Below, piece by piece: positions 9,388-26,035 of a stretch of DNA of 33,177 bases. Under the pieces are notes generated by a model, which worked only from the letters and a program-made list of their open reading frames with translations, made no database searches and was not told where the DNA came from. The stretch spans positions 1 through 33,177 of the forward strand of contig JAFYRX010000021.1 of assembly GCA_017546725.1 (NCBI GenBank), in the 5' to 3' direction. The stretch is from Alistipes sp. (GTDB lineage: Bacteria > Bacteroidota > Bacteroidia > Bacteroidales > Rikenellaceae). The translations under genes were made by a program, and so were the position numbers. Each line of letters opens with the position of its first letter. Position 1 is the first letter of the stretch.

Positions 9388-10773
9388 ATGAAAAACGTGG
9401 CGAATATGAATATGTTAAGACGCAAGAAGCGTTCCACCACGGTTGTGAACGTTATGATTGCCATCGTGATTACGTTGGCAGTGAACTTTTCGTACATATT
9501 GGTAATGATTGCCGAGCAGCGCGAAAACTCAAGCAACACGACAAACAATCAACCACAACAACCACAACAACTGCCCGAAGCAGAGGGCGTATTGCATCTT
9601 TCGCGTGATGGTTACGGATATATTATCGTAGAAAATAATATATCACAAGAGGCTTCTGACCAAGGACTCGCCGACAGCATTTTTGTCAGCAATCGCAAAG
9701 TATGGCAATACCGCCTGCAAGATGGAGATGCGGTACGTTGCACACTATATCCACCGCGAGGAAACTCTAATCCGAGCCTAAACGAGGTGTTAATACATAA
9801 CGGCAACGAGATTCCCGCACCTCCCGTCTTTGACCGTCCCCGACGTTCACAAGATATGGCGTGGCAAATGCTCTATTACTTTACTTTAACACTTCTGTTG
9901 CTGACAATTATGACGGTGCGTTTTGATGTCCACAACTTTACTACACGCCGTTATTTGATACGTTGTACAGGTGTAATCCTAACAGCCTTTGCGTTCTACT
10001 TCTTCGCACCATTCATAAATTGGAAGGTGGGCGGTAAGGTGATGATGATTTTCCAGCACGAACCAAACATTATGGTCGATTATTTGGTTATTATGAAGTG
10101 CTTGGTAGCCGTCATCGTTGCTATCCTTTATGGCCGTATCTACGGAATGTTGTTCGAGCAGCAGAAGATTCAGTTGGAGAACGAGCGCCTACGTAGCGAA
10201 AACTTGCAGACACAGTACAACCTGCTGATGGGACAGATTAGTCCGCACTTCTTCTTCAACTCGCTCAACTCGCTCTCGATGCTGGTGCGCGAGCAGAACG
10301 AGGAGAAGGCGTTGGCATACATCGACCAACTATCATACACATTCCGATATATCATTCAGAACGGCCAAAATACAAACACTACGTTGGCCGATGAGATGGA
10401 GTTTACACGAGCCTATGGCGAGTTGTTTAAGGTGCGTTATGCCGACAAACTATTCTTCGACATTGACATAGACCCTAAATATAACGAGTGGACTCTGCCA
10501 GCACTCACTATGCAGCCGCTGATTGGCAATGCCGTGAAGCACAACACCATCACACGCAAGCAACCCTTCCATATATCGATTCGCACCGAAGGCTCTACGC
10601 TTATCGTATCGAATCGCAAGGCCCCGAAGTTGGAGCCAGAGCCATCAACGGGTATTGGATTGAAGAATTTGTGCAGCCGATGGAAGTTAATCACAGGCAA
10701 GGACATAGAAATCAAAGACACTGATAGCGAATTTATCGTTATACTGCCTTTGCAGCACCCCGACGGACAATAG
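9388..10773 (+). CDS. LytS/YehU-type sensor histidine kinase with a Rho-like OB-fold extracytoplasmic domain
   Basis: Membrane sensor kinase of 461 aa partnered with the LytTR regulator 25 bp downstream. TM1 spans about 18-41 after the basic RRKKR (inside). Residues 43-157 should be extracytoplasmic. TM2, TM3 and TM4 lie at about 158-177, 192-211 and 231-250. A coiled linker (255-280) leads to a His_kinase domain with phospho-acceptor H287 in ISPHFFFNSLN, an ATP N-box around N381 (PLIGNAVKHN) and a GIGLKNL G-box (422-428). Residues 66-140 strongly resemble the cold-shock-like RNA-binding domain of Rho: EGVL, DGYGY (74-78), DSIFVS (96-101), YRLQDGD (108-114) and YPPRG (121-125). The kinase call is firm. 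The Rho-like sensor is my reading by eye. Confidence 0.93.
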   Translation: MKNVANMNMLRRKKRSTTVVNVMIAIVITLAVNFSYILVMIAEQRENSSNTTNNQPQQPQQLPEAEGVLHLSRDGYGYIIVENNISQEASDQGLADSIFVSNRKVWQYRLQDGDAVRCTLYPPRGNSNPSLNEVLIHNGNEIPAPPVFDRPRRSQDMAWQMLYYFTLTLLLLTIMTVRFDVHNFTTRRYLIRCTGVILTAFAFYFFAPFINWKVGGKVMMIFQHEPNIMVDYLVIMKCLVAVIVAILYGRIYGMLFEQQKIQLENERLRSENLQTQYNLLMGQISPHFFFNSLNSLSMLVREQNEEKALAYIDQLSYTFRYIIQNGQNTNTTLADEMEFTRAYGELFKVRYADKLFFDIDIDPKYNEWTLPALTMQPLIGNAVKHNTITRKQPFHISIRTEGSTLIVSNRKAPKLEPEPSTGIGLKNLCSRWKLITGKDIEIKDTDSEFIVILPLQHPDGQ

Positions 10774-10798: not shown

Positions 10799-11581
10799 AT
10801 GAACATTCTTATAGTAGAGGATGAAACGGCTGCTGCCGTAAACCTAAAAGCAATATTGAAGAGCATCGACCCTTCGTTCAATATCATAACCGTATTGGAA
10901 AGCATCGAAGAGGGTGTAGAATATTTTGAGGACAAGAGTCAGCCCACACCGGACCTTGTATTTATGGATATCCATCTGGCCGACGGTGAGTCATTTCGCA
11001 TATTCGACTCGGTAGATATCACCGCACCCATCATCTTCACTACGGCGTATGATGAATATGCCCTGCGTGCCTTTAAGGTAAATAGTATTGATTATCTATT
11101 GAAGCCCATTAAGGTTGATGATGTACGACGTGCTATCGAGAAACTCACTCGTTTAAGTGGCAACGAGCGCACTAATTACAATAGTCGTATCAATACGATG
11201 ATTGAATCATCCAAGCAAAACAACAATAATCAGCGAGTCTTCCTTGTACATTACAAGGATAAGATTATTCCGCTTAACATTGACGATGTGGCCTACTTCT
11301 ATATCTCAAACGAACGTGTAACAGCCGTAACACTTTCGTCGGAGCACTACAATATTGACCGCACGCTGGAATCGTTGCAGGCTACCTTGCCCGAAGATGA
11401 GTTCTTCCGAGCCAACCGCCAATTTATCATTGCTCGCAAATCTGTAAAAGATATTGCAGTATGGTTTGGCAGTCGATTATCGCTTAATCTGTCGGTTGAG
11501 ATTCCCGAAAAGATTATCATCAGCAAGGCTCGAGTTCCTGAATTCAAGCAATGGCTAACGTCAGTTCACCCCCTAAATTAG
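10799..11581 (+). CDS. LytTR-family response regulator
   Basis: DNA-binding regulator of 260 aa, paired with the kinase encoded just upstream. The receiver domain (1-120) has the acidic pocket E7-D8, phospho-acceptor D57 (LVFMDIHL), T81/T82 (IIFTTAYDEYALRAF) and K102 (YLLKPIKVDD). A short linker leads to a LytTR domain (about 150-255), recognised by VHYKDKIIPLNIDDVAYFY, the FFRANRQFIIARKSV motif and the C-terminal IIISKARVPEFKQWL. The regulator should bind direct repeats upstream of its targets. The genes following its terminator (11761 and 12647) are natural candidates, but I cannot identify binding sites. Confidence 0.95.
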   Translation: MNILIVEDETAAAVNLKAILKSIDPSFNIITVLESIEEGVEYFEDKSQPTPDLVFMDIHLADGESFRIFDSVDITAPIIFTTAYDEYALRAFKVNSIDYLLKPIKVDDVRRAIEKLTRLSGNERTNYNSRINTMIESSKQNNNNQRVFLVHYKDKIIPLNIDDVAYFYISNERVTAVTLSSEHYNIDRTLESLQATLPEDEFFRANRQFIIARKSVKDIAVWFGSRLSLNLSVEIPEKIIISKARVPEFKQWLTSVHPLN

Positions 11582-11610
11582 GCGATTCGCCCTGCAAATC
11601 GAGACGTTTA

Positions 11611-11636
11611 ACCGATGCCGCGGCATCGGTTTTTTA
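11611..11636 (+). terminator. Intrinsic terminator of the kinase-regulator operon
   Basis: Perfect 10-bp palindrome arms 11611-11620 and 11621-11630 (ACCGATGCCG and its complement), followed by TTTTT and A. It lies 30 bp after the regulator stop codon. Confidence 0.92.
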
Positions 11637-11760: not shown

Positions 11761-12342
11761 ATGAAAGGATTGAGAATTATCGCATTAGCGTTTGCATTAT
11801 GCATCGGAGGCACAGCCTTGGCACAAGGTCCTCAAGGTCCACAGCGTCCTCAAGGCCCACAAGGTCAGCAGCAAGGTCAGCGTGGCCCTCGCCAGAGAAT
11901 GAATCCCGAGCAGATGGCCAAGATGCAGACAGAGCGTTATGCTAAGAGTTTGGAACTCTCAGAGGAGCAGCAGAAGAAGTTGTACGACTACAACTTGAAT
12001 AACATCAAGAAGCAGCAAGAGGAGCGTGAGAAGATGCGCGCTCAACGTGAGCAAGGTCAGCAGGGACAAGGTCAAAGACCCGACTTCCGCAATATGAGCG
12101 ATGCTGACCGTGAGGCATTTATGAAGAAGATGCAGGAGGAGCGCAAGGCTCAAGAGGCTGCACAGGAGAAAGCACTTAAAGAGATTCTCACAGAAGCACA
12201 ATATAAGAAGTGGCAGAAACTCAAGAAACAGCAGGAGATGCGCCAGCGTCAGATGATGCAGCAGCGTATGGAAGGCGGTGAAGGCGGTTTCGGTGGTCCT
12301 GGTGGACAAGGTGGTCCTGGTGGCGGCTTCGGAGGCTTCTAA
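11761..12342 (+). CDS. Exported Gln/Gly-rich, Spy-like helical protein (DUF4890-like)
   Basis: The 193-aa protein has a signal peptide ending at AQ (residues 1-21). It is followed by a low-complexity Gly-Pro-Gln stretch (22-45), a helical charged core (about 46-168) and a glycine-rich tail (about 170-193, GGFGGPGGQGG). The core has two LxLSEEQ/ILTEAQ-type motifs (SLELSEEQQKKLYDYN and ALKEILTEAQYKKWQKLKKQ). These resemble periplasmic Spy/CpxP-type LTxxQ proteins and Bacteroidetes DUF4890. A chaperone or envelope-stress role is inferred from that likeness. It sits between a two-component system and a large barrel gene whose product also has glycine-rich segments. Confidence 0.8.
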   Translation: MKGLRIIALAFALCIGGTALAQGPQGPQRPQGPQGQQQGQRGPRQRMNPEQMAKMQTERYAKSLELSEEQQKKLYDYNLNNIKKQQEEREKMRAQREQGQQGQGQRPDFRNMSDADREAFMKKMQEERKAQEAAQEKALKEILTEAQYKKWQKLKKQQEMRQRQMMQQRMEGGEGGFGGPGGQGGPGGGFGGF

Positions 12343-12646: not shown

Positions 12647-15538
12647 ATGAAAAGATTATTTTTGACTGCAATCTTTGCACTATTGACCACTGCCCTATTC
12701 GCACAGCGTCAAGGTAACATTTCATTGACCGTAGTCGATGAAAAAACCAACGAGCCTGTAATCGGAGCAGTGTTGGAGATGGCTCCTACATCAAAAGCCG
12801 ATGACAAGAAACACTACACAACTGACATCGACGGCAAGGTTACAACCCCCAACAAACCTTACGGCAAGTACAATGCTACAATCTCATTCTTGGGTTATGA
12901 GGACTATAAGATGGAGATTCAAATTAACTCGCCGAAGCGAAATCTTGGAACAATCGCACTCAAGGAGAGTACAACACAAATCAACACCGTCGTAAAGGAG
13001 GTGCAGGCTATCCGTGCTTCACAAAAGGGCGATACTGTAAGTTACAACGCAGGTGCATATAAGGTTGCCAACGACGCCGACGTTGAGGGCCTTTTGAAGA
13101 AGATGCCTGGTATCACAATCACCAATGGCTCAGTTGAGGCTCAGGGTGAGACCGTACAGAAAATCTTTGTCGATGGCAAGGAGTTCTTTGGCGATGACGT
13201 ATCTACTGCGCTCAACTCACTTCCTGCACAGGCAGTAAAGAGTGTTGAGGTTTATAACAAGTTGAGCGATAACGCAGAGTTCTCGGGCCGTGATGACGGT
13301 AACAGTTACAAGGCTTTGAACATCGTAACGCACGAAAATATGCGTCAGGGTGCATTCGGTAAACTCTATGCGGGCTACGGATATCAACCCGATACGGACG
13401 ATATCACCAACTCTAACAAATATAACGCTGGTGGTAACGTCAATTACTTCACAGGCGCACACCGCATCTCAGCCATCGGTATGATAAACAACATCAACCA
13501 GCAACACTTCTCATTTGAAGATATCTTAAGTGTCTCTGGTGAAGGTGGCGGTATGGGCGGCCGCGGCGGCGGTGGCTTTATGACACGTCCACAGAGTGGA
13601 GTTGCCAAAGTCGGTGCGATAGGTCTTAACTATACAGCCGCTTGGGGTGAAGAGGGCGAAGCCGGTGAGGTAAAGTTGCAGGCAAGTTACTTCTTCAACC
13701 GCACTCGCACACGTAACCTCTCGGAGATGACTCGCTGGTATGAGGCTCCGTTGGAGGATTTGGGAACATTGGAGCAGAGCAGCAGTTCTGACAATCGCAA
13801 CTACAACCACCGTGTTAATGCTCGTTTGGACTGGCGTATCACAGACAATCAATCGATTATGTCGCGTACCAACTTCAGCCTTCAGTCTTACGACCCCTTC
13901 AGCCGTACAGATGGTTTGCAGGTTGGCGAGAACCTCTATAACATCATCCGAAACGGCAGCAATGGCGACAATGGTGGTTACAACTTCTCGGAGTTCTTGC
14001 AGTATCGCCTGAAGTTGAGCGAGGAGGGACGTATGATTACCGTTGATGGCCGTGTGAACTATCGTAACAACGAGAACGAGTCTCGTTCATTCTCTAACCA
14101 AGAGACAATCAAGAACGAGGATGGCACATACTCACCCTACTTGCGTTATTTGAGCAACGACTCATCGTCAGACAACTTGGGTGTAGGTGCTGCCGTAAAC
14201 TACTCGGAGCCTGTTGGCAAGTTCTCGCAGATTACTATGCGCTACGACTTCAACTATACGGGACAGAATAGCGACCGTAACACATTCAATTATGGTAATA
14301 ACAGCGATTACACTAATGGTATTCTCGACCCTGCGCTTTCTAACCGCTACACAAGCGATTACACTACCCACCGCATAGGTCCAGGTTTCAACTACTCAAA
14401 GGAGCGCAACACATTTGTTGTAAATTTGAGTTACCAGTACTCAACGCTCGATGGTCAGGTAGAGGCACTGCAGACACAACCCGTAAAGCGTTCTTACAAC
14501 GACTTTACATACTTTATGATGGGTAATTTGAATATCAACAAGCAGCACTCATTGCGCCTGTTCGTTATGTCAAATACTGACAACCCTCGCATCAACCAGT
14601 TGAACAGCATTCTCGACATCTCTGACTCGCAGTATGTATCGAATGGTAACGAAAATTTGAATCCTGCATACTCACACCGCGTGAACTTCCACTACAACTT
14701 CACCAACCTGGAGAAGGGCCGTACGTTTATGTGGATGTTCGGATTCAGCACATCACAGAATTCTATCGCACAGAGCATCTATACAGGCAGCAACATCCCG
14801 CAGAACATTGTAGATGAGGTTGGCTCACAGCCCATCCAATACACTACTTACGACAACGTAGACGGACAGTTGAGCCTGAATACATTCTTGAACTATGGTG
14901 TGCCTTTGAACTTTATGAAGTGTAACCTTAACCTGCGAGGTGGTGTTAACTACTCAAAGAATCCTTCATTGGTGAACGAGCAGAAGAATATTGCAAGCAA
15001 TATGGGCTACAATGCAGGTGTCGTATTGGGTAGTAACATCTCTGAAAATATCGACTTTACACTTTCGTGGGACGGACGTTACAACGTAGCCGAGAACTCG
15101 TTGGCATCACGCGGTGGCAAGAACGAGTATTTCAACCACTCGGCATCGGGTTCTATCAAGACTGTATTCTGGAAGGGCTTTACATTCACAGCCAGCGCAA
15201 GTTACATCCAAAATATCGGTTACACCAACGACTATAACGACTCTTATACGTTGTGTAACGCATTCCTCGGCAAGAAAATCTTCAAGAATCAGTTGGGAGA
15301 GATTATGGTCGGTGTAAACGATATATTCAATCAGAATACATCATTCGCCCGCTCAACAGGCTCTGGTTATACGCAGAACTCTTGGAACAGCGTGATTGGA
15401 CGTTACTTCACAGTACAGTTCAACTACAACTTGCGAGTATTCGGCAAGAAGGGCTCACGCAACCTCGCTGATTATGGCATTATGGAGGGCGGTCAAGGCG
15501 GACGCCGTATGGGTCCCCCGATGGGCGGTCCCCGCTAA
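12647..15538 (+). CDS. Large outer-membrane beta-barrel protein (TonB-receptor-like, Omp_b-brl_3 type)
   Basis: The 963-aa protein has a signal peptide (1-19), a carboxypeptidase-regulatory-like domain (about 23-105), a plug-like domain (about 110-235, with KKMPGITI, VDGKEFFGDD and SVEVYNK) and a long beta-barrel. A glycine-rich stretch lies at about 296-312 (GEGGGMGGRGGGGF), and the C-terminus is Gly/Pro/Arg-rich (MEGGQGGRRMGPPMGGPR) instead of ending in an aromatic residue. This is the SusC-unlinked barrel family common in Bacteroidetes. The substrate is unknown and no SusD partner is present. It lies downstream of a LytTR two-component system and a Spy-like gene; the same Gly-rich style suggests a functional link. 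It ends at a two-way terminator at 15561-15600. Confidence 0.9.
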   Translation: MKRLFLTAIFALLTTALFAQRQGNISLTVVDEKTNEPVIGAVLEMAPTSKADDKKHYTTDIDGKVTTPNKPYGKYNATISFLGYEDYKMEIQINSPKRNLGTIALKESTTQINTVVKEVQAIRASQKGDTVSYNAGAYKVANDADVEGLLKKMPGITITNGSVEAQGETVQKIFVDGKEFFGDDVSTALNSLPAQAVKSVEVYNKLSDNAEFSGRDDGNSYKALNIVTHENMRQGAFGKLYAGYGYQPDTDDITNSNKYNAGGNVNYFTGAHRISAIGMINNINQQHFSFEDILSVSGEGGGMGGRGGGGFMTRPQSGVAKVGAIGLNYTAAWGEEGEAGEVKLQASYFFNRTRTRNLSEMTRWYEAPLEDLGTLEQSSSSDNRNYNHRVNARLDWRITDNQSIMSRTNFSLQSYDPFSRTDGLQVGENLYNIIRNGSNGDNGGYNFSEFLQYRLKLSEEGRMITVDGRVNYRNNENESRSFSNQETIKNEDGTYSPYLRYLSNDSSSDNLGVGAAVNYSEPVGKFSQITMRYDFNYTGQNSDRNTFNYGNNSDYTNGILDPALSNRYTSDYTTHRIGPGFNYSKERNTFVVNLSYQYSTLDGQVEALQTQPVKRSYNDFTYFMMGNLNINKQHSLRLFVMSNTDNPRINQLNSILDISDSQYVSNGNENLNPAYSHRVNFHYNFTNLEKGRTFMWMFGFSTSQNSIAQSIYTGSNIPQNIVDEVGSQPIQYTTYDNVDGQLSLNTFLNYGVPLNFMKCNLNLRGGVNYSKNPSLVNEQKNIASNMGYNAGVVLGSNISENIDFTLSWDGRYNVAENSLASRGGKNEYFNHSASGSIKTVFWKGFTFTASASYIQNIGYTNDYNDSYTLCNAFLGKKIFKNQLGEIMVGVNDIFNQNTSFARSTGSGYTQNSWNSVIGRYFTVQFNYNLRVFGKKGSRNLADYGIMEGGQGGRRMGPPMGGPR

Positions 15539-22234: not shown

Positions 22235-25200
22235 ATGCTAAAAAAATTAACCCTTTTTGCGATATCATTGATGGTGATAGCATCTACACCAATGGCATCA
22301 GCACAAACTGCAGGAATCAAGTCCGCAAATAAAATCAACCCGACAACCGTAGAGATACGCTTTACCGAAGGAGAGAGTATGATGCTCGATTTCTATGGCA
22401 AGAATATATTTCGTCTGTTTCAAGATAACAACGGAGGCATAATACGCAATCCCGAAGCAAAACCCGAAGCACAGATTTTAGTTGACAAGCCACGTCGTGA
22501 GGTTGGCGACATTAGGGTTGAGGAGCAAGGTGATAATATTACTATTAAGACCGAGCAGATTAAGGTCGTTTTCGACAAGCAGACGGCTACGATGCAGGTT
22601 ACCGACCTGCGTACCGAGCGCACGGTTATTAAGCAGATAGAGCCTATAAAGTTTAGCGGCAAGGGTGTTGCCGTAAATTTCGCTACCGAGGATAACGAGT
22701 ACTTCTATGGTGGCGGTGTGCAGAATGGCCGTTTCTCGCACAAAGGCAAGATTATCGCCATCGAAAATCAAAATAGTTGGACCGATGGCGGAGTGGCTTC
22801 ACCCACCCCATTCTATTGGTCAACAAATGGTTACGGTATAATGTGGCACACCTTCAAGAAGGGCAAGTACGACTTCGGAGCAACCGACAACGCAGTCGTA
22901 GCATTGAGCCACGAAGAGAATTATGCAGATTTCTTCGTTATGGTAAGCGAAAAATCCATTGCGCTGCTTAACGACTTTTATCAGTTGACAGGCAATCCTG
23001 TTTTGTTGCCTAAGTTCGGATTTTATCAAGGTCACTTGAATGCCTACAATCGTGACTACTGGGTAGAGACCGAAGAGGGAGGTATTTTGTTCGAAGACGG
23101 CAAACGTTATAAGGAGAGCCAGCAGGATAACGGAGGCGTAAAGGAGTCTTTGAATGGCGAGAAGGGAAATTATCAATTCTCGGCTCGTGCTGTAATTGAC
23201 CGTTATGAGCAGTATGATATGCCATTGGGATGGTTGTTACCCAACGACGGTTATGGTGCTGGTTATGGCCAGACCGAAACACTCGATGGCAATATACAGA
23301 ATCTTAAAGAGTTGGGCGATTATGCCCGAAAGAAGGGAGTAGAGATAGGCCTATGGACTCAGTCGGACCTCCACCCCAAACCCGATGTAAGCGCATTGTT
23401 GCAACGCGACATCATAAAGGAAGTGCGTGACGCAGGCGTAAGAGTGCTTAAAACCGATGTGGCTTGGGTTGGCGCTGGTTATTCATTCGGTTTGAACGGT
23501 ATTGCCGATGTAGCACAGATTATGCCCTACTACGGCTCCGATGCTCGTCCATTTATCATTTCGCTCGATGGTTGGGCTGGCACACAGCGATATGCAGGTA
23601 TCTGGACAGGTGACCAATCGGGTGGCGAGTGGGAGTATATTCGTTTCCACATCCCGACATACATAGGTTCGGGGTTGTCGGGACAACCCAACATATCATC
23701 CGATATGGACGGAATCTTTGGCGGAAAGAAACCAATTATCAATACACGCGACTTCCAATGGAAGACATTCTCACCTATGCAACTCAATATGGACGGTTGG
23801 GGTGCAAACGAGAAGTATCCGCACGCTTTGGGAGAGCCAGCAACATCGCTCAACCGCTGGTATTTGAAACTAAAGGCAGAGTTGATGCCATACACATATT
23901 CTATCGCGCAGGAGTCTATTGACGGTATGCCTATGATTCGTGCAATGATGCTGGAGTGGCCTAACAAATATACGCTTGGCACGGCAACACGTTATCAGTT
24001 TATGTATGGCCCGTCGTTCTTGGTAGCACCAATCTACCAAGATACGGCAGCAGATGAGGAGGGAAACGACATCCGTAATGGCATATATCTGCCCGAAGGC
24101 GAATGGTATGACTACTTTACAGGCGAACGTTACGAAGGAGGCCGCGTGATAAACAACTATGCATCTCCAATTTGGAAGTTGCCCATATTTGTTCGTGAGG
24201 GCGCCATAATTCCGATGACCTCAAGTCACAACAACCCCAATCAGATAGATAAGCACCTGCGTATTTATGAGTTATACCCCACTGCTGACAACTCATTTAC
24301 GGAGTATGATGACGATGGTCGTACAGAGGCCTATCGTAAAGGCGAAAACACCACAACGAAGATTGAGACCGCAACGGATAATCGTAAAGTGATAATCACA
24401 ATCAATCCCACAGAGGGCGATTTCGAGGGTTTTGAGCCTATGAAACGAACTCATTTGCGAGTTAATATCTCACAAAAACCGAAACGAATATCGGCAAAGG
24501 TAAACTCTCGCAAGGTTTCGTTGAAACAGGTTGGTAGTTTGAAGGAATTGGAGCAGAACGACAATTGTTATTTTTATGAGGCTCAGCCCGATGTGACACG
24601 CCTCGCAACAAAGGGTAGCCTTTTGGAGAATTTGCAGATTACAAAGAATCCTGTCTTGCACGTTAAATTAGCCGAAGCGGATATTACTGCGACATCGCAG
24701 GTTGTAACAATCGACGGTTATGAGTTTAATATCGACAACCGTCTGCGCGTGAAAGAGGGAGAGTTGCAAAAGCCCCAATTTGCACTTGAGGATAACGGAA
24801 TCCGTCCATATGAGGTTACGCCAAAGTGGACCGAGGTAGAGAATGCCGACTATTATGAAATCGAGTTCGAGGATATGCTCTACTCGACTATCCGTAGCGA
24901 CTCATTGGCCTTTGGCGATTTGAAGGCTGACACTGAATATAGTTTCCGTCTGCGTGCAGTAAATGCCGCAGGAACATCGGAGTGGACAGAGTGCAGCGTA
25001 CACACAAAACGTAATCCGTTGGAGTGGGCCATAAAGAATATCAAGAGCGAAGCATCTACGCCTGCACAGGGAGGAGCCTCGTTGGCATTGCTTTTTGACT
25101 TCTCGGAGGCAGGAAATATATGGCATACTGCCTACGGCAAGGATGCTCTGCCGTTGGAGATTATTGCCGATTTACGCTCGGTGAATACACTTGACAAGAT

Positions 25201-26035
25201 GCACTACATACCGCGCGACAACGCTGGCAATGGTAATATCTTGGCGGGTAAGGTCTATGTAAGCGAAGATAAGCAGAATTGGAGCGAAGCGGGTAATTTC
25301 GAGTGGGAGCGCAACAACAAAACCAAAGTCTTTACATTCGAGGGTAAGCCATCGGCTCGCTATGTAAAGGTTGTTGTAAGCAAGTCTGTTGGTAACTTCG
25401 GCTCGGGTAAGGAGTTATTTATATTCAAAGTGCCCAATTCGGAGAGTTACATTCAGGGTGACATCAACAATGACGGCAAGATTGATACCAATGACCTCAC
25501 TTCTTATATGAACTATACGGGATTGCGCCGTGGCGATGGCGACTTTGAGGGTTATATCAGCCGAGGCGACATCAATGCCAATGGTTTGATTGATGCTTAC
25601 GATGTCTCTACCGCTGCTACGATGCTCGACGAGGGCGTCAGGGGCGGCAAGCCAATAGCAGGCGATATCGTAATATCAAGCGACAAGACCGATTATAAGG
25701 CTGGCGATGAGGTCGTAATCACTGTCGAAGGTAAAGCATTGGCAGGAGTTAACGCCTTGAGTTTTGCTCTGCCATATAATCAGCAGGATTACGAATATAT
25801 CGGCATAGAGCCTACGGGTATGCAGCAGATGGAGAATCTGACAAACGACCGTCTGCATACGTCGGGCGATAAATCGCTCTATCCGATGTTTGTCAACACG
25901 GGCAATAAGCCTACCGTTGAGGGTGATACGACACTTATGACTATTAAGTTCAAGGCAAAACGCAACATCAAGTTTGACCTGAAGGCCGTAGACGGATTTA
26001 TGGTCGATAAGCAACTCGGAGTAAAGCAGTTTTAG
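22235..26035 (+). CDS. Multidomain GH31 glycosidase with FN3, F5/8C, dockerin-like and cohesin-like modules
   Basis: Exported alpha-glycosidase of 1266 aa. It has a signal peptide (1-23), a GH31 N-domain (about 26-255) and a catalytic barrel (about 260-600) with probable nucleophile D408 (LKTDVAW) and acid/base D460 (IWTGDQSGG). Then come a DUF5110-like region (about 670-760), FN3 (about 855-930) and a F5/8-type-C/CBM32-like module (about 930-1066). Two dockerin-type Ca-binding loops follow (G1075-DINNDGKIDTNDL and G1111-DINANGLIDAYDV). A C-terminal cohesin-like beta-sandwich (about 1140-1266) is recognised by YKAGDEVVITVEG, VNALSFALPY and TLMTIKFKAK. The barrel sequence resembles the GH31 branch with alpha-N-acetylgalactosaminidases that act on mucin-type glycans; this is recollection, not proof. 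The esterase gene follows 39 bp later. Confidence 0.92.
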   Translation: MLKKLTLFAISLMVIASTPMASAQTAGIKSANKINPTTVEIRFTEGESMMLDFYGKNIFRLFQDNNGGIIRNPEAKPEAQILVDKPRREVGDIRVEEQGDNITIKTEQIKVVFDKQTATMQVTDLRTERTVIKQIEPIKFSGKGVAVNFATEDNEYFYGGGVQNGRFSHKGKIIAIENQNSWTDGGVASPTPFYWSTNGYGIMWHTFKKGKYDFGATDNAVVALSHEENYADFFVMVSEKSIALLNDFYQLTGNPVLLPKFGFYQGHLNAYNRDYWVETEEGGILFEDGKRYKESQQDNGGVKESLNGEKGNYQFSARAVIDRYEQYDMPLGWLLPNDGYGAGYGQTETLDGNIQNLKELGDYARKKGVEIGLWTQSDLHPKPDVSALLQRDIIKEVRDAGVRVLKTDVAWVGAGYSFGLNGIADVAQIMPYYGSDARPFIISLDGWAGTQRYAGIWTGDQSGGEWEYIRFHIPTYIGSGLSGQPNISSDMDGIFGGKKPIINTRDFQWKTFSPMQLNMDGWGANEKYPHALGEPATSLNRWYLKLKAELMPYTYSIAQESIDGMPMIRAMMLEWPNKYTLGTATRYQFMYGPSFLVAPIYQDTAADEEGNDIRNGIYLPEGEWYDYFTGERYEGGRVINNYASPIWKLPIFVREGAIIPMTSSHNNPNQIDKHLRIYELYPTADNSFTEYDDDGRTEAYRKGENTTTKIETATDNRKVIITINPTEGDFEGFEPMKRTHLRVNISQKPKRISAKVNSRKVSLKQVGSLKELEQNDNCYFYEAQPDVTRLATKGSLLENLQITKNPVLHVKLAEADITATSQVVTIDGYEFNIDNRLRVKEGELQKPQFALEDNGIRPYEVTPKWTEVENADYYEIEFEDMLYSTIRSDSLAFGDLKADTEYSFRLRAVNAAGTSEWTECSVHTKRNPLEWAIKNIKSEASTPAQGGASLALLFDFSEAGNIWHTAYGKDALPLEIIADLRSVNTLDKMHYIPRDNAGNGNILAGKVYVSEDKQNWSEAGNFEWERNNKTKVFTFEGKPSARYVKVVVSKSVGNFGSGKELFIFKVPNSESYIQGDINNDGKIDTNDLTSYMNYTGLRRGDGDFEGYISRGDINANGLIDAYDVSTAATMLDEGVRGGKPIAGDIVISSDKTDYKAGDEVVITVEGKALAGVNALSFALPYNQQDYEYIGIEPTGMQQMENLTNDRLHTSGDKSLYPMFVNTGNKPTVEGDTTLMTIKFKAKRNIKFDLKAVDGFMVDKQLGVKQF

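Follow-up and report, generated by a model that had tools for sequence, protein, structure and literature searches.

The locus described here raises the question of whether the RNA-binding domain of the transcription terminator Rho has been taken up as the sensor of a membrane-bound histidine kinase and, if so, what such a sensor would recognize. The initial annotation of the window, i.e., the whole analysed stretch of 33,177 nucleotides, had placed a Rho-like OB domain outside the cytoplasm, as the sensor of a LytS-type kinase, a placement that profile matches and the predicted topology support. At the level of sequence, neither of the findings named in advance as refuting it, a lack of significant matches to Rho or cold-shock folds and a cytoplasmic segment, was obtained. 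The kinase and its neighbors are summarized in the table.

Features of the kinase locus (positions in the window; residue numbers refer to the kinase)
Feature	Position	Strand	Basis
LytS-type sensor histidine kinase, 461 aa, with Rho-type OB sensor domain	9388..10773	+	ORF, PF06580 E 1.6e-21, PF07497
TM1, residues 23-41	9454..9510	+	hydropathy and charge
Rho_RNA_bind-type OB domain, approximately residues 64-140, predicted extracytoplasmic	9577..9807	+	PF07497, profile and hhalign comparisons
TM2, residues 161-179	9868..9924	+	hydropathy
TM3, residues 189-207	9952..10008	+	hydropathy
TM4, residues 228-246	10069..10125	+	hydropathy
Kinase region PF06580, residues 276-355, with SPHFFFNSLN	10213..10452	+	Pfam and motif
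Response regulator, receiver and LytTR DNA-binding domain	10799..11581	+	PF00072 E 9.6e-13, PF04397 E 1.8e-20
Candidate LytTR operator, direct repeat CGATTCGCC-N13-CGTTTAACC, 31 bp	11583..11613	+	repeat comparison across loci
Terminator-like hairpin 3' of the response-regulator gene, abutting the repeat	11610..11631	+	pattern scan only
DUF4890 protein, signal-like start, two L[ST]xxQ motifs, probable target	11761..12342	+	PF16231 E 3.5e-11, motifs
Outer-membrane beta-barrel protein (OMP_b-brl_3), probable target	12647..15538	+	PF14905 E 1.3e-25

Homology of the sensor domain to Rho and its predicted topology

The kinase region scored 76.8 bits against PF06580 (cut-off 25.2), and the LytTR domain of the adjoining regulator scored 73.4 bits against PF04397, identifying a histidine kinase with its cognate regulator beside it. 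Motif reading 3' of the PF06580 region revealed an N-box-like LIGNAVKHN (residues 378-386) and GIGLKNL (422-428); we take SPHFFFNSLN to carry the phospho-acceptor histidine and the other two to be ATP-binding motifs. The kinase region, a multi-TM anchor and a nearby LytTR regulator are shared with LytS/YehU-type kinases (PF06580, PF04397), whereas the window kinase has an OB-type domain in its first extracytoplasmic loop where these have a short loop. Four TM helices were predicted, and no Pfam match to 5TMR_LYT was obtained on the window kinase at E up to 1. The remaining Pfam matches (ArsP_1 at E 1.5e-4, DUF2298 and weaker ones) fell below cut-off, mostly in the TM part. The nearest named record belongs to an Alistipes sp. 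MAG (L033), with 86% identity over the kinase, so that the source is most likely an Alistipes-type member of the Rikenellaceae. Upstream of the kinase are genes for a MazG protein and for a protein with hexapeptide repeats. Elsewhere in the window, positions 22235-26035 encode a GH31 glycosidase with F5/8 type C and fn3 domains, near the end of which a dockerin match lies just above, and a cohesin match just below, the Pfam cut-off.

The motifs originally quoted for the sensor domain are found at the residues given for them, e.g., DGYGY at 74-78 and DSIFVS at 96-101. The stretch first delimited, 9580-9810, corresponds to residues 65-141, with the best Pfam stretch at residues 66-134. There, PF07497 (Rho_RNA_bind, cut-off 27) matched the whole kinase at E 3.9e-6 with 27.0 bits, exactly the cut-off, rising to 32.1 bits (E 9.9e-8) when the 78-aa domain was searched alone, and it scored 30.5 bits on the domain in a six-frame search. 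The N-terminal domain of Rho (PF07497; PDB 1a62, 2a8v) and the kinase domain share the order of the motifs GVL, DGYGY, DSIFVS, LQDGD, PPRG and NG over ~70 residues. Unlike Rho, the kinase domain lies between two TM helices and is followed by the kinase region instead of the RNA-dependent ATPase domain, which was not found. The NCBIfam models for Rho matched the kinase partially, with 22 of 315 and 18 of 509 bits, far under their whole-protein cut-offs, and a Rho-type match scoring 114 bits is encoded separately in the source genome. The kinase domains further differ from Rho in that a variable insert separates the DGYGY motif from the DS motif. Five of them (L048, L049, L050, L069 and L076) carry inserts of ~30-60 aa in this segment of the OB domain, often of low complexity.

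Although phmmer, run against the PDB with one sequence, returned Rho only and weakly (E 0.02 to 0.4), a profile of the kinase-domain family (26 rows, 25 of them distinct, as row 2 duplicates the window) retrieved 13 distinct Rho sequences at E 4e-12 to 2e-6 ahead of everything else. Among these was E. coli Rho at E 4.2e-12; the best non-Rho protein was a DARPin at E 0.0026. PF07497 was matched individually by all 26 rows at E up to 0.01. Profile-profile comparison by hhalign gave a probability of 99.1% between the 26-row family and 10 Rho sequences, and of 99.2% (E 3.7e-19) between 46 kinase domains shorter than 106 aa and 32 Rho sequences. Controls consisting of five column-shuffled profiles and one reversed profile yielded 0.1-1.1%, and this failure rules out a chance likeness. 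Significant profile matches were obtained with PF07497, the family profile in the PDB, hhalign and the individual rows. It was also considered whether this could be a generic cold-shock or OB domain, kin to RNase R or CspA and merely Rho-like. Four RNase R-like OB domains do align with the family, as a distant cousin fold (90%, E 1.7e-6), and OB_RNB was matched by 5/26 rows; set against the far better Rho alignment, the uniform PF07497 matches and the 13 Rho sequences that precede any other PDB protein, such kinship is highly improbable. An origin from RNase R was rejected, being weaker than Rho in both hhalign and per-row Pfam comparisons. Based on sequence comparison, the likeness of the kinase domain to the RNA-binding domain of Rho is homology, and it is on this homology that the predicted OB fold and its cleft rest.

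The topology was examined by hydropathy and charge. Residues 1-22 of the window kinase, ahead of TM1, contain six K/R and no D/E, which predicts an inside N-terminus, and the OB domain falls between TM1 and TM2. Among 53 OB-bearing homologs, the 14 residues before TM1 were net positive in 48 and not positive in five, and the TM2-TM3 loop (loop 2) was net positive in 51, in agreement with an N-in arrangement. Loop 1, with the OB domain, was net zero or negative in 38 of the 53 and net positive in 15. Mean net charges over these homologs were +2.2, -3.0 and +2.0 for the 14 residues before TM1, loop 1 and loop 2, respectively. Since the kinase is necessarily inside, the four helices and this charge bias together predict that the OB domain lies outside the cytoplasm, in the periplasm. 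An inverted topology, with a cytoplasmic OB domain that binds RNA there, would suit the fact that the cytoplasm is rich in nucleic acid and that the Rho domain is itself cytoplasmic. It is very unlikely, however, given the three predicted TM helices that separate the domain from the kinase, the positive N-termini and second loops, and sister kinases lacking the domain, which align over the same TM plan.

The former RNA-binding site

We aligned 53 kinase domains with 31 Bacteroidales Rho sequences and E. coli Rho, whose numbering is used here; L033, a duplicate of L039, was omitted, and kinases without the domain were not included. Framework positions were largely kept in the kinase domains: G53 in 51, D60 in 52, G63 in 53, D77 in 51, N120 in 48 and G121 in 52 of the 53. 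Aromatic residues also persisted, with Tyr or Phe at position 64 in all domains, an aromatic at position 80 in 52, and Tyr or Phe at position 62 in 40. The polar positions differed: R66 was kept in one domain (V, I or L in 49), D78 in none (Ser in 51), E108 in five, and Y110 in none (His in 30, Asn in 23), the alignment being least sure around 106-110, where a gap lies nearby. In the Bacteroidales Rho proteins, R66, D78, Y80 and E108 were invariant (31/31), and position 110 was Tyr in 30 and Phe in one. Mean net charge, -1.8 for Rho and -1.0 for the kinases, does not separate the two groups.

In Rho, Y80 is reported to contact nucleic acid (PMC1950744), an F62S variant is described as defective in RNA binding (PMC4150792), and R66, D78 and Y80 are listed among the six residues that read pyrimidines (PMC9908020). 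The kinase domains keep the aromatics at 64 and 80 out of a base-reading set that is otherwise broken. We presume F64, E108 and Y110 to be the other three members of this set. The initial annotation had held that the aromatics contacting RNA are retained as Y76, Y78 and F99; all three stand in the window kinase, while the polar base-reading positions around them have been replaced. Among 67 columns ranked by conservation within the kinases, column 78 was 6th, column 64 was 8th and column 110 was 14th, whereas columns 66 and 108 ranked 27th and 44th; these two being poorly conserved, the former site is not wholly under constraint. A cleft that is partly conserved, yet with residues other than those of Rho, suggests a site rebuilt for a new partner, as far as can be judged from sequence.

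Does the domain still bind single-stranded nucleic acid or short oligonucleotides, so that the kinase would sense extracytoplasmic nucleic acid? The persistence of aromatic positions 64, 80 and 62, two of them (Y80 and F62) tied to RNA binding in the reports on Rho, speaks for it. In addition, the Rho of Thermus thermophilus, a true Rho, is reported to differ at R66, D78 and Y80 (PMC9908020), so loss of these residues alone does not exclude RNA binding. Nevertheless, the near-complete loss of R66, D78, E108 and Y110, set against the uniform retention of R66, D78, Y80 and E108 in Bacteroidales Rho, makes this reading improbable. We regard as similarly unlikely a scenario in which the Rho-derived cleft would sense extracytoplasmic nucleotides, dinucleotides or short oligonucleotides, reading nucleic-acid debris in the gut and remodeling the outer membrane in response. 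Of the two possibilities first raised, nucleic-acid sensing and re-use of the fold for another ligand, the evidence leans towards re-use, as most kinase domains have other residues at R66, D78, E108 and Y110, and at two of these positions the exchange is nearly uniform. It is more likely that the ligand is not C-rich RNA.

Distribution and origin of the OB domain

A search of Bacteroidetes kinases for the same domain had been suggested, and our searches found it in the genus of the window and in genera g199 and g200. Among 200 genomes of the family, strong matches (family profile, E below 1e-17, counted by hand) occurred in 98 of the 112 that belong to the genus, in 9 of the 11 from g199 and in the single g200 genome, whereas the 76 remaining family members had none; part of the profile came from these same genomes. 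Another five genus genomes (G391, G423, G425, G427 and G473) do not reach the threshold, and four of these, G391, G423, G425 and G473, have long inserts in or before the OB domain. Nine genus genomes gave no domain match, some assemblies being incomplete. Of the two g199 genomes below the threshold, G367 and G377, the former contains the domain with an insert (L069). Beyond the family, the profile found only the genome of the window among 296 genomes of the phylum at E up to 1e-17, which rules out a wide spread of this architecture, and nothing above 60 bits apart from that genome among 198 genomes of the order.

PF07497 itself gave an over-cut-off match in 276 of 295 order genomes, and more than one match in 13 besides that of the window. 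A re-search of these 13 revealed 13 extra places with 17.5-21.5 bits, below cut-off, and a second strong match in G293; four of seven weak loci examined encode an RNase R-like domain. Across 118 phylum genomes, a second over-cut-off match (30.7-46.6 bits) was present in 28 besides the genome of the window, all outside its class. The Rho ATPase was found in 12 of 13 that were fetched, which identifies them as a divergent second Rho. Such a second Rho, with an altered RNA-binding domain, was seen in other classes of the phylum (L183-L194). Over-cut-off Rho_RNA_bind matches examined outside the kinase were Rho or Rho-like, at 31 Bacteroidales loci and in 12/13 from other classes. In a search of open-access journal papers, no report was found of Rho_RNA_bind in a histidine kinase. 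Judged by title and abstract opening, none of the papers listed on cold-shock or OB sensors and on OB-fold/LytS combinations (20 of 135 for the latter) deals with this architecture, the sole match for Alistipes LytTR kinases concerns Crohn's disease, and a review of kinase sensors gave no match to the terms OB fold, cold shock or LytS.

Orthologous kinases are present in sister genera. In 17 of them, which lack the OB domain, the TM1-TM2 stretch measured 15-25 residues in 14 and held unrelated inserts in three, all from genus g2 (L078, L080 and L081; L079 of the same genus lies outside all counts). In L078 and L080, the OB domain is replaced by an insert of ~100 aa that is helix-like by eye and has no clear Pfam match (weak ones only for L078); this position can therefore house modules of different kinds. 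In four domain-less loci (L125-L128), the neighbors on the regulator and OMP sides were unchanged. In a quick tree restricted to the kinase part, with 71 rows, 297 columns and a single distant outgroup, the 53 OB-bearing rows fell on one side of a branch with SH-aLRT 98, which requires one change. Most simply, the OB domain would have been gained once, in the ancestor of the Alistipes-type genus and two sister genera. Nine pairs were tried for dN/dS of the OB segment and two were saturated; values were 0.07-0.22 in six of the seven computable pairs and 0.44 in the seventh, which has long inserts, all of them rough since several dS exceed 1. These values point to purifying selection on the OB segment.

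Output genes and the proposed circuit

In all 22 other loci, the strand that encodes the kinase also encodes a LytTR regulator downstream of it, within ~1 kb in 20; in L109 (8455-10854) and L128 (4633-6978), a 780-800-aa ORF with a signal-like start by eye lies between the kinase and regulator genes. An OMP gene follows on the same strand in 20/22 loci, and DUF4890 was detected in 12/22. The interval between regulator and OMP contains a direct repeat with the consensus CRWTTHRCC and a spacer of 12-13 bp. In its strict form, the repeat occurred nine times, in 8 of the 23 regions that run from regulator to OMP (18.3 kb; 900 bases were used where no OMP was found nearby), with no occurrence elsewhere in the same loci (717 kb, both strands) and none in 200 shuffles. 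A leave-one-out matrix at a score of 20 or more found it in 17 of the 23 regions with one match elsewhere. As the 23 regions belong to related genomes, they do not count as independent tests; nor do the window, L109, L110 and L111 give independent support, since the pattern was derived from these four. In the window alone, with up to one mismatch, a match arose in 5/100 shuffles, so the case for its repeat is comparative. Its layout agrees with that of canonical LytTR sites, described as paired 9-bp repeats 10-13 bp apart (PMC11347149), a similar layout being reported elsewhere (PMC4847170). The lone repeat outside these regions is a strong one in L127 (8950, minus strand), in the stretch from the hexapeptide gene to the kinase. 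It probably lies ahead of the kinase gene of this sister genus, whose start is estimated, and suggests autoregulation there. The repeat is also present in L125, L126 and L128, where the kinase has no OB domain, so the output seems older than the sensor.

We consider it probable that the locus encodes a two-component membrane sensor whose Rho-type OB input module was acquired, by a single simplest gain, in the TM1-TM2 loop of an older four-TM LytS-type kinase. Beyond this anatomy, every step of the mechanism is one that we infer. A periplasmic ligand or protein partner would bind the OB domain in the former RNA cleft, lined by the conserved Tyr78, Phe/Tyr99, Ser97 and Asn/His128 (window numbering). 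Binding would shift TM1/TM2 and change the phosphorylation of His287, and the LytTR regulator, bound to the tandem repeats, would then control the DUF4890 and beta-barrel outer-membrane genes. Such a circuit might guard the envelope much as Cpx-type systems do, an analogy in layout only: the Cpx system (CpxA/CpxR, CpxP/Spy) likewise joins a sensor and a regulator to a small LTxxQ-like protein. The DUF4890 protein is presumably CpxP/Spy-like in its LTxxQ-like motifs. The window kinase, however, is of another class, with DUF4890 and beta-barrel genes as presumed targets, and the sensor of CpxA is described as PAS-like (PMC11078701). Counted against the proposed circuit are the sister genera that keep it without the OB domain, the 15/53 positive first loops and 5/53 N-termini that are not positive, the detection of DUF4890 in only 12/22 loci and the nine of 112 genus genomes without a domain match.

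CpxA works with CpxP, and the OB domain may, by analogy, serve for docking or dimerization in the periplasm and bind no small ligand, its partner being, e.g., the DUF4890 or beta-barrel protein. This alternative, possible if rather doubtful, fits the adjacency of the DUF4890 and OMP genes to the kinase-regulator pair, the tolerance of the OB domain for inserts of up to ~60 aa, the unrelated ~100-aa insert in the same slot of two genus-g2 kinases, and the reported control of CpxA through contacts between sensor-domain monomers (PMC11078701). The high conservation of the former RNA-contact columns 78, 64 and 110, beyond that of glycines and core, and the 10/22 loci in which DUF4890 went undetected argue against it. 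The ligand, the fold and the target are directly testable, as the domain comprises ~80 residues and the predicted operator 31 bp.

Judged from its sequence, a gene-regulation module of Rho seems to have become, in this gut bacterium, an extracytoplasmic receptor for some signal, its nucleic-acid cleft altered at the same positions through most of the genus. Relatives that have the same neighborhood without the domain lend themselves directly to comparison, which could show how new inputs are acquired by sensors.
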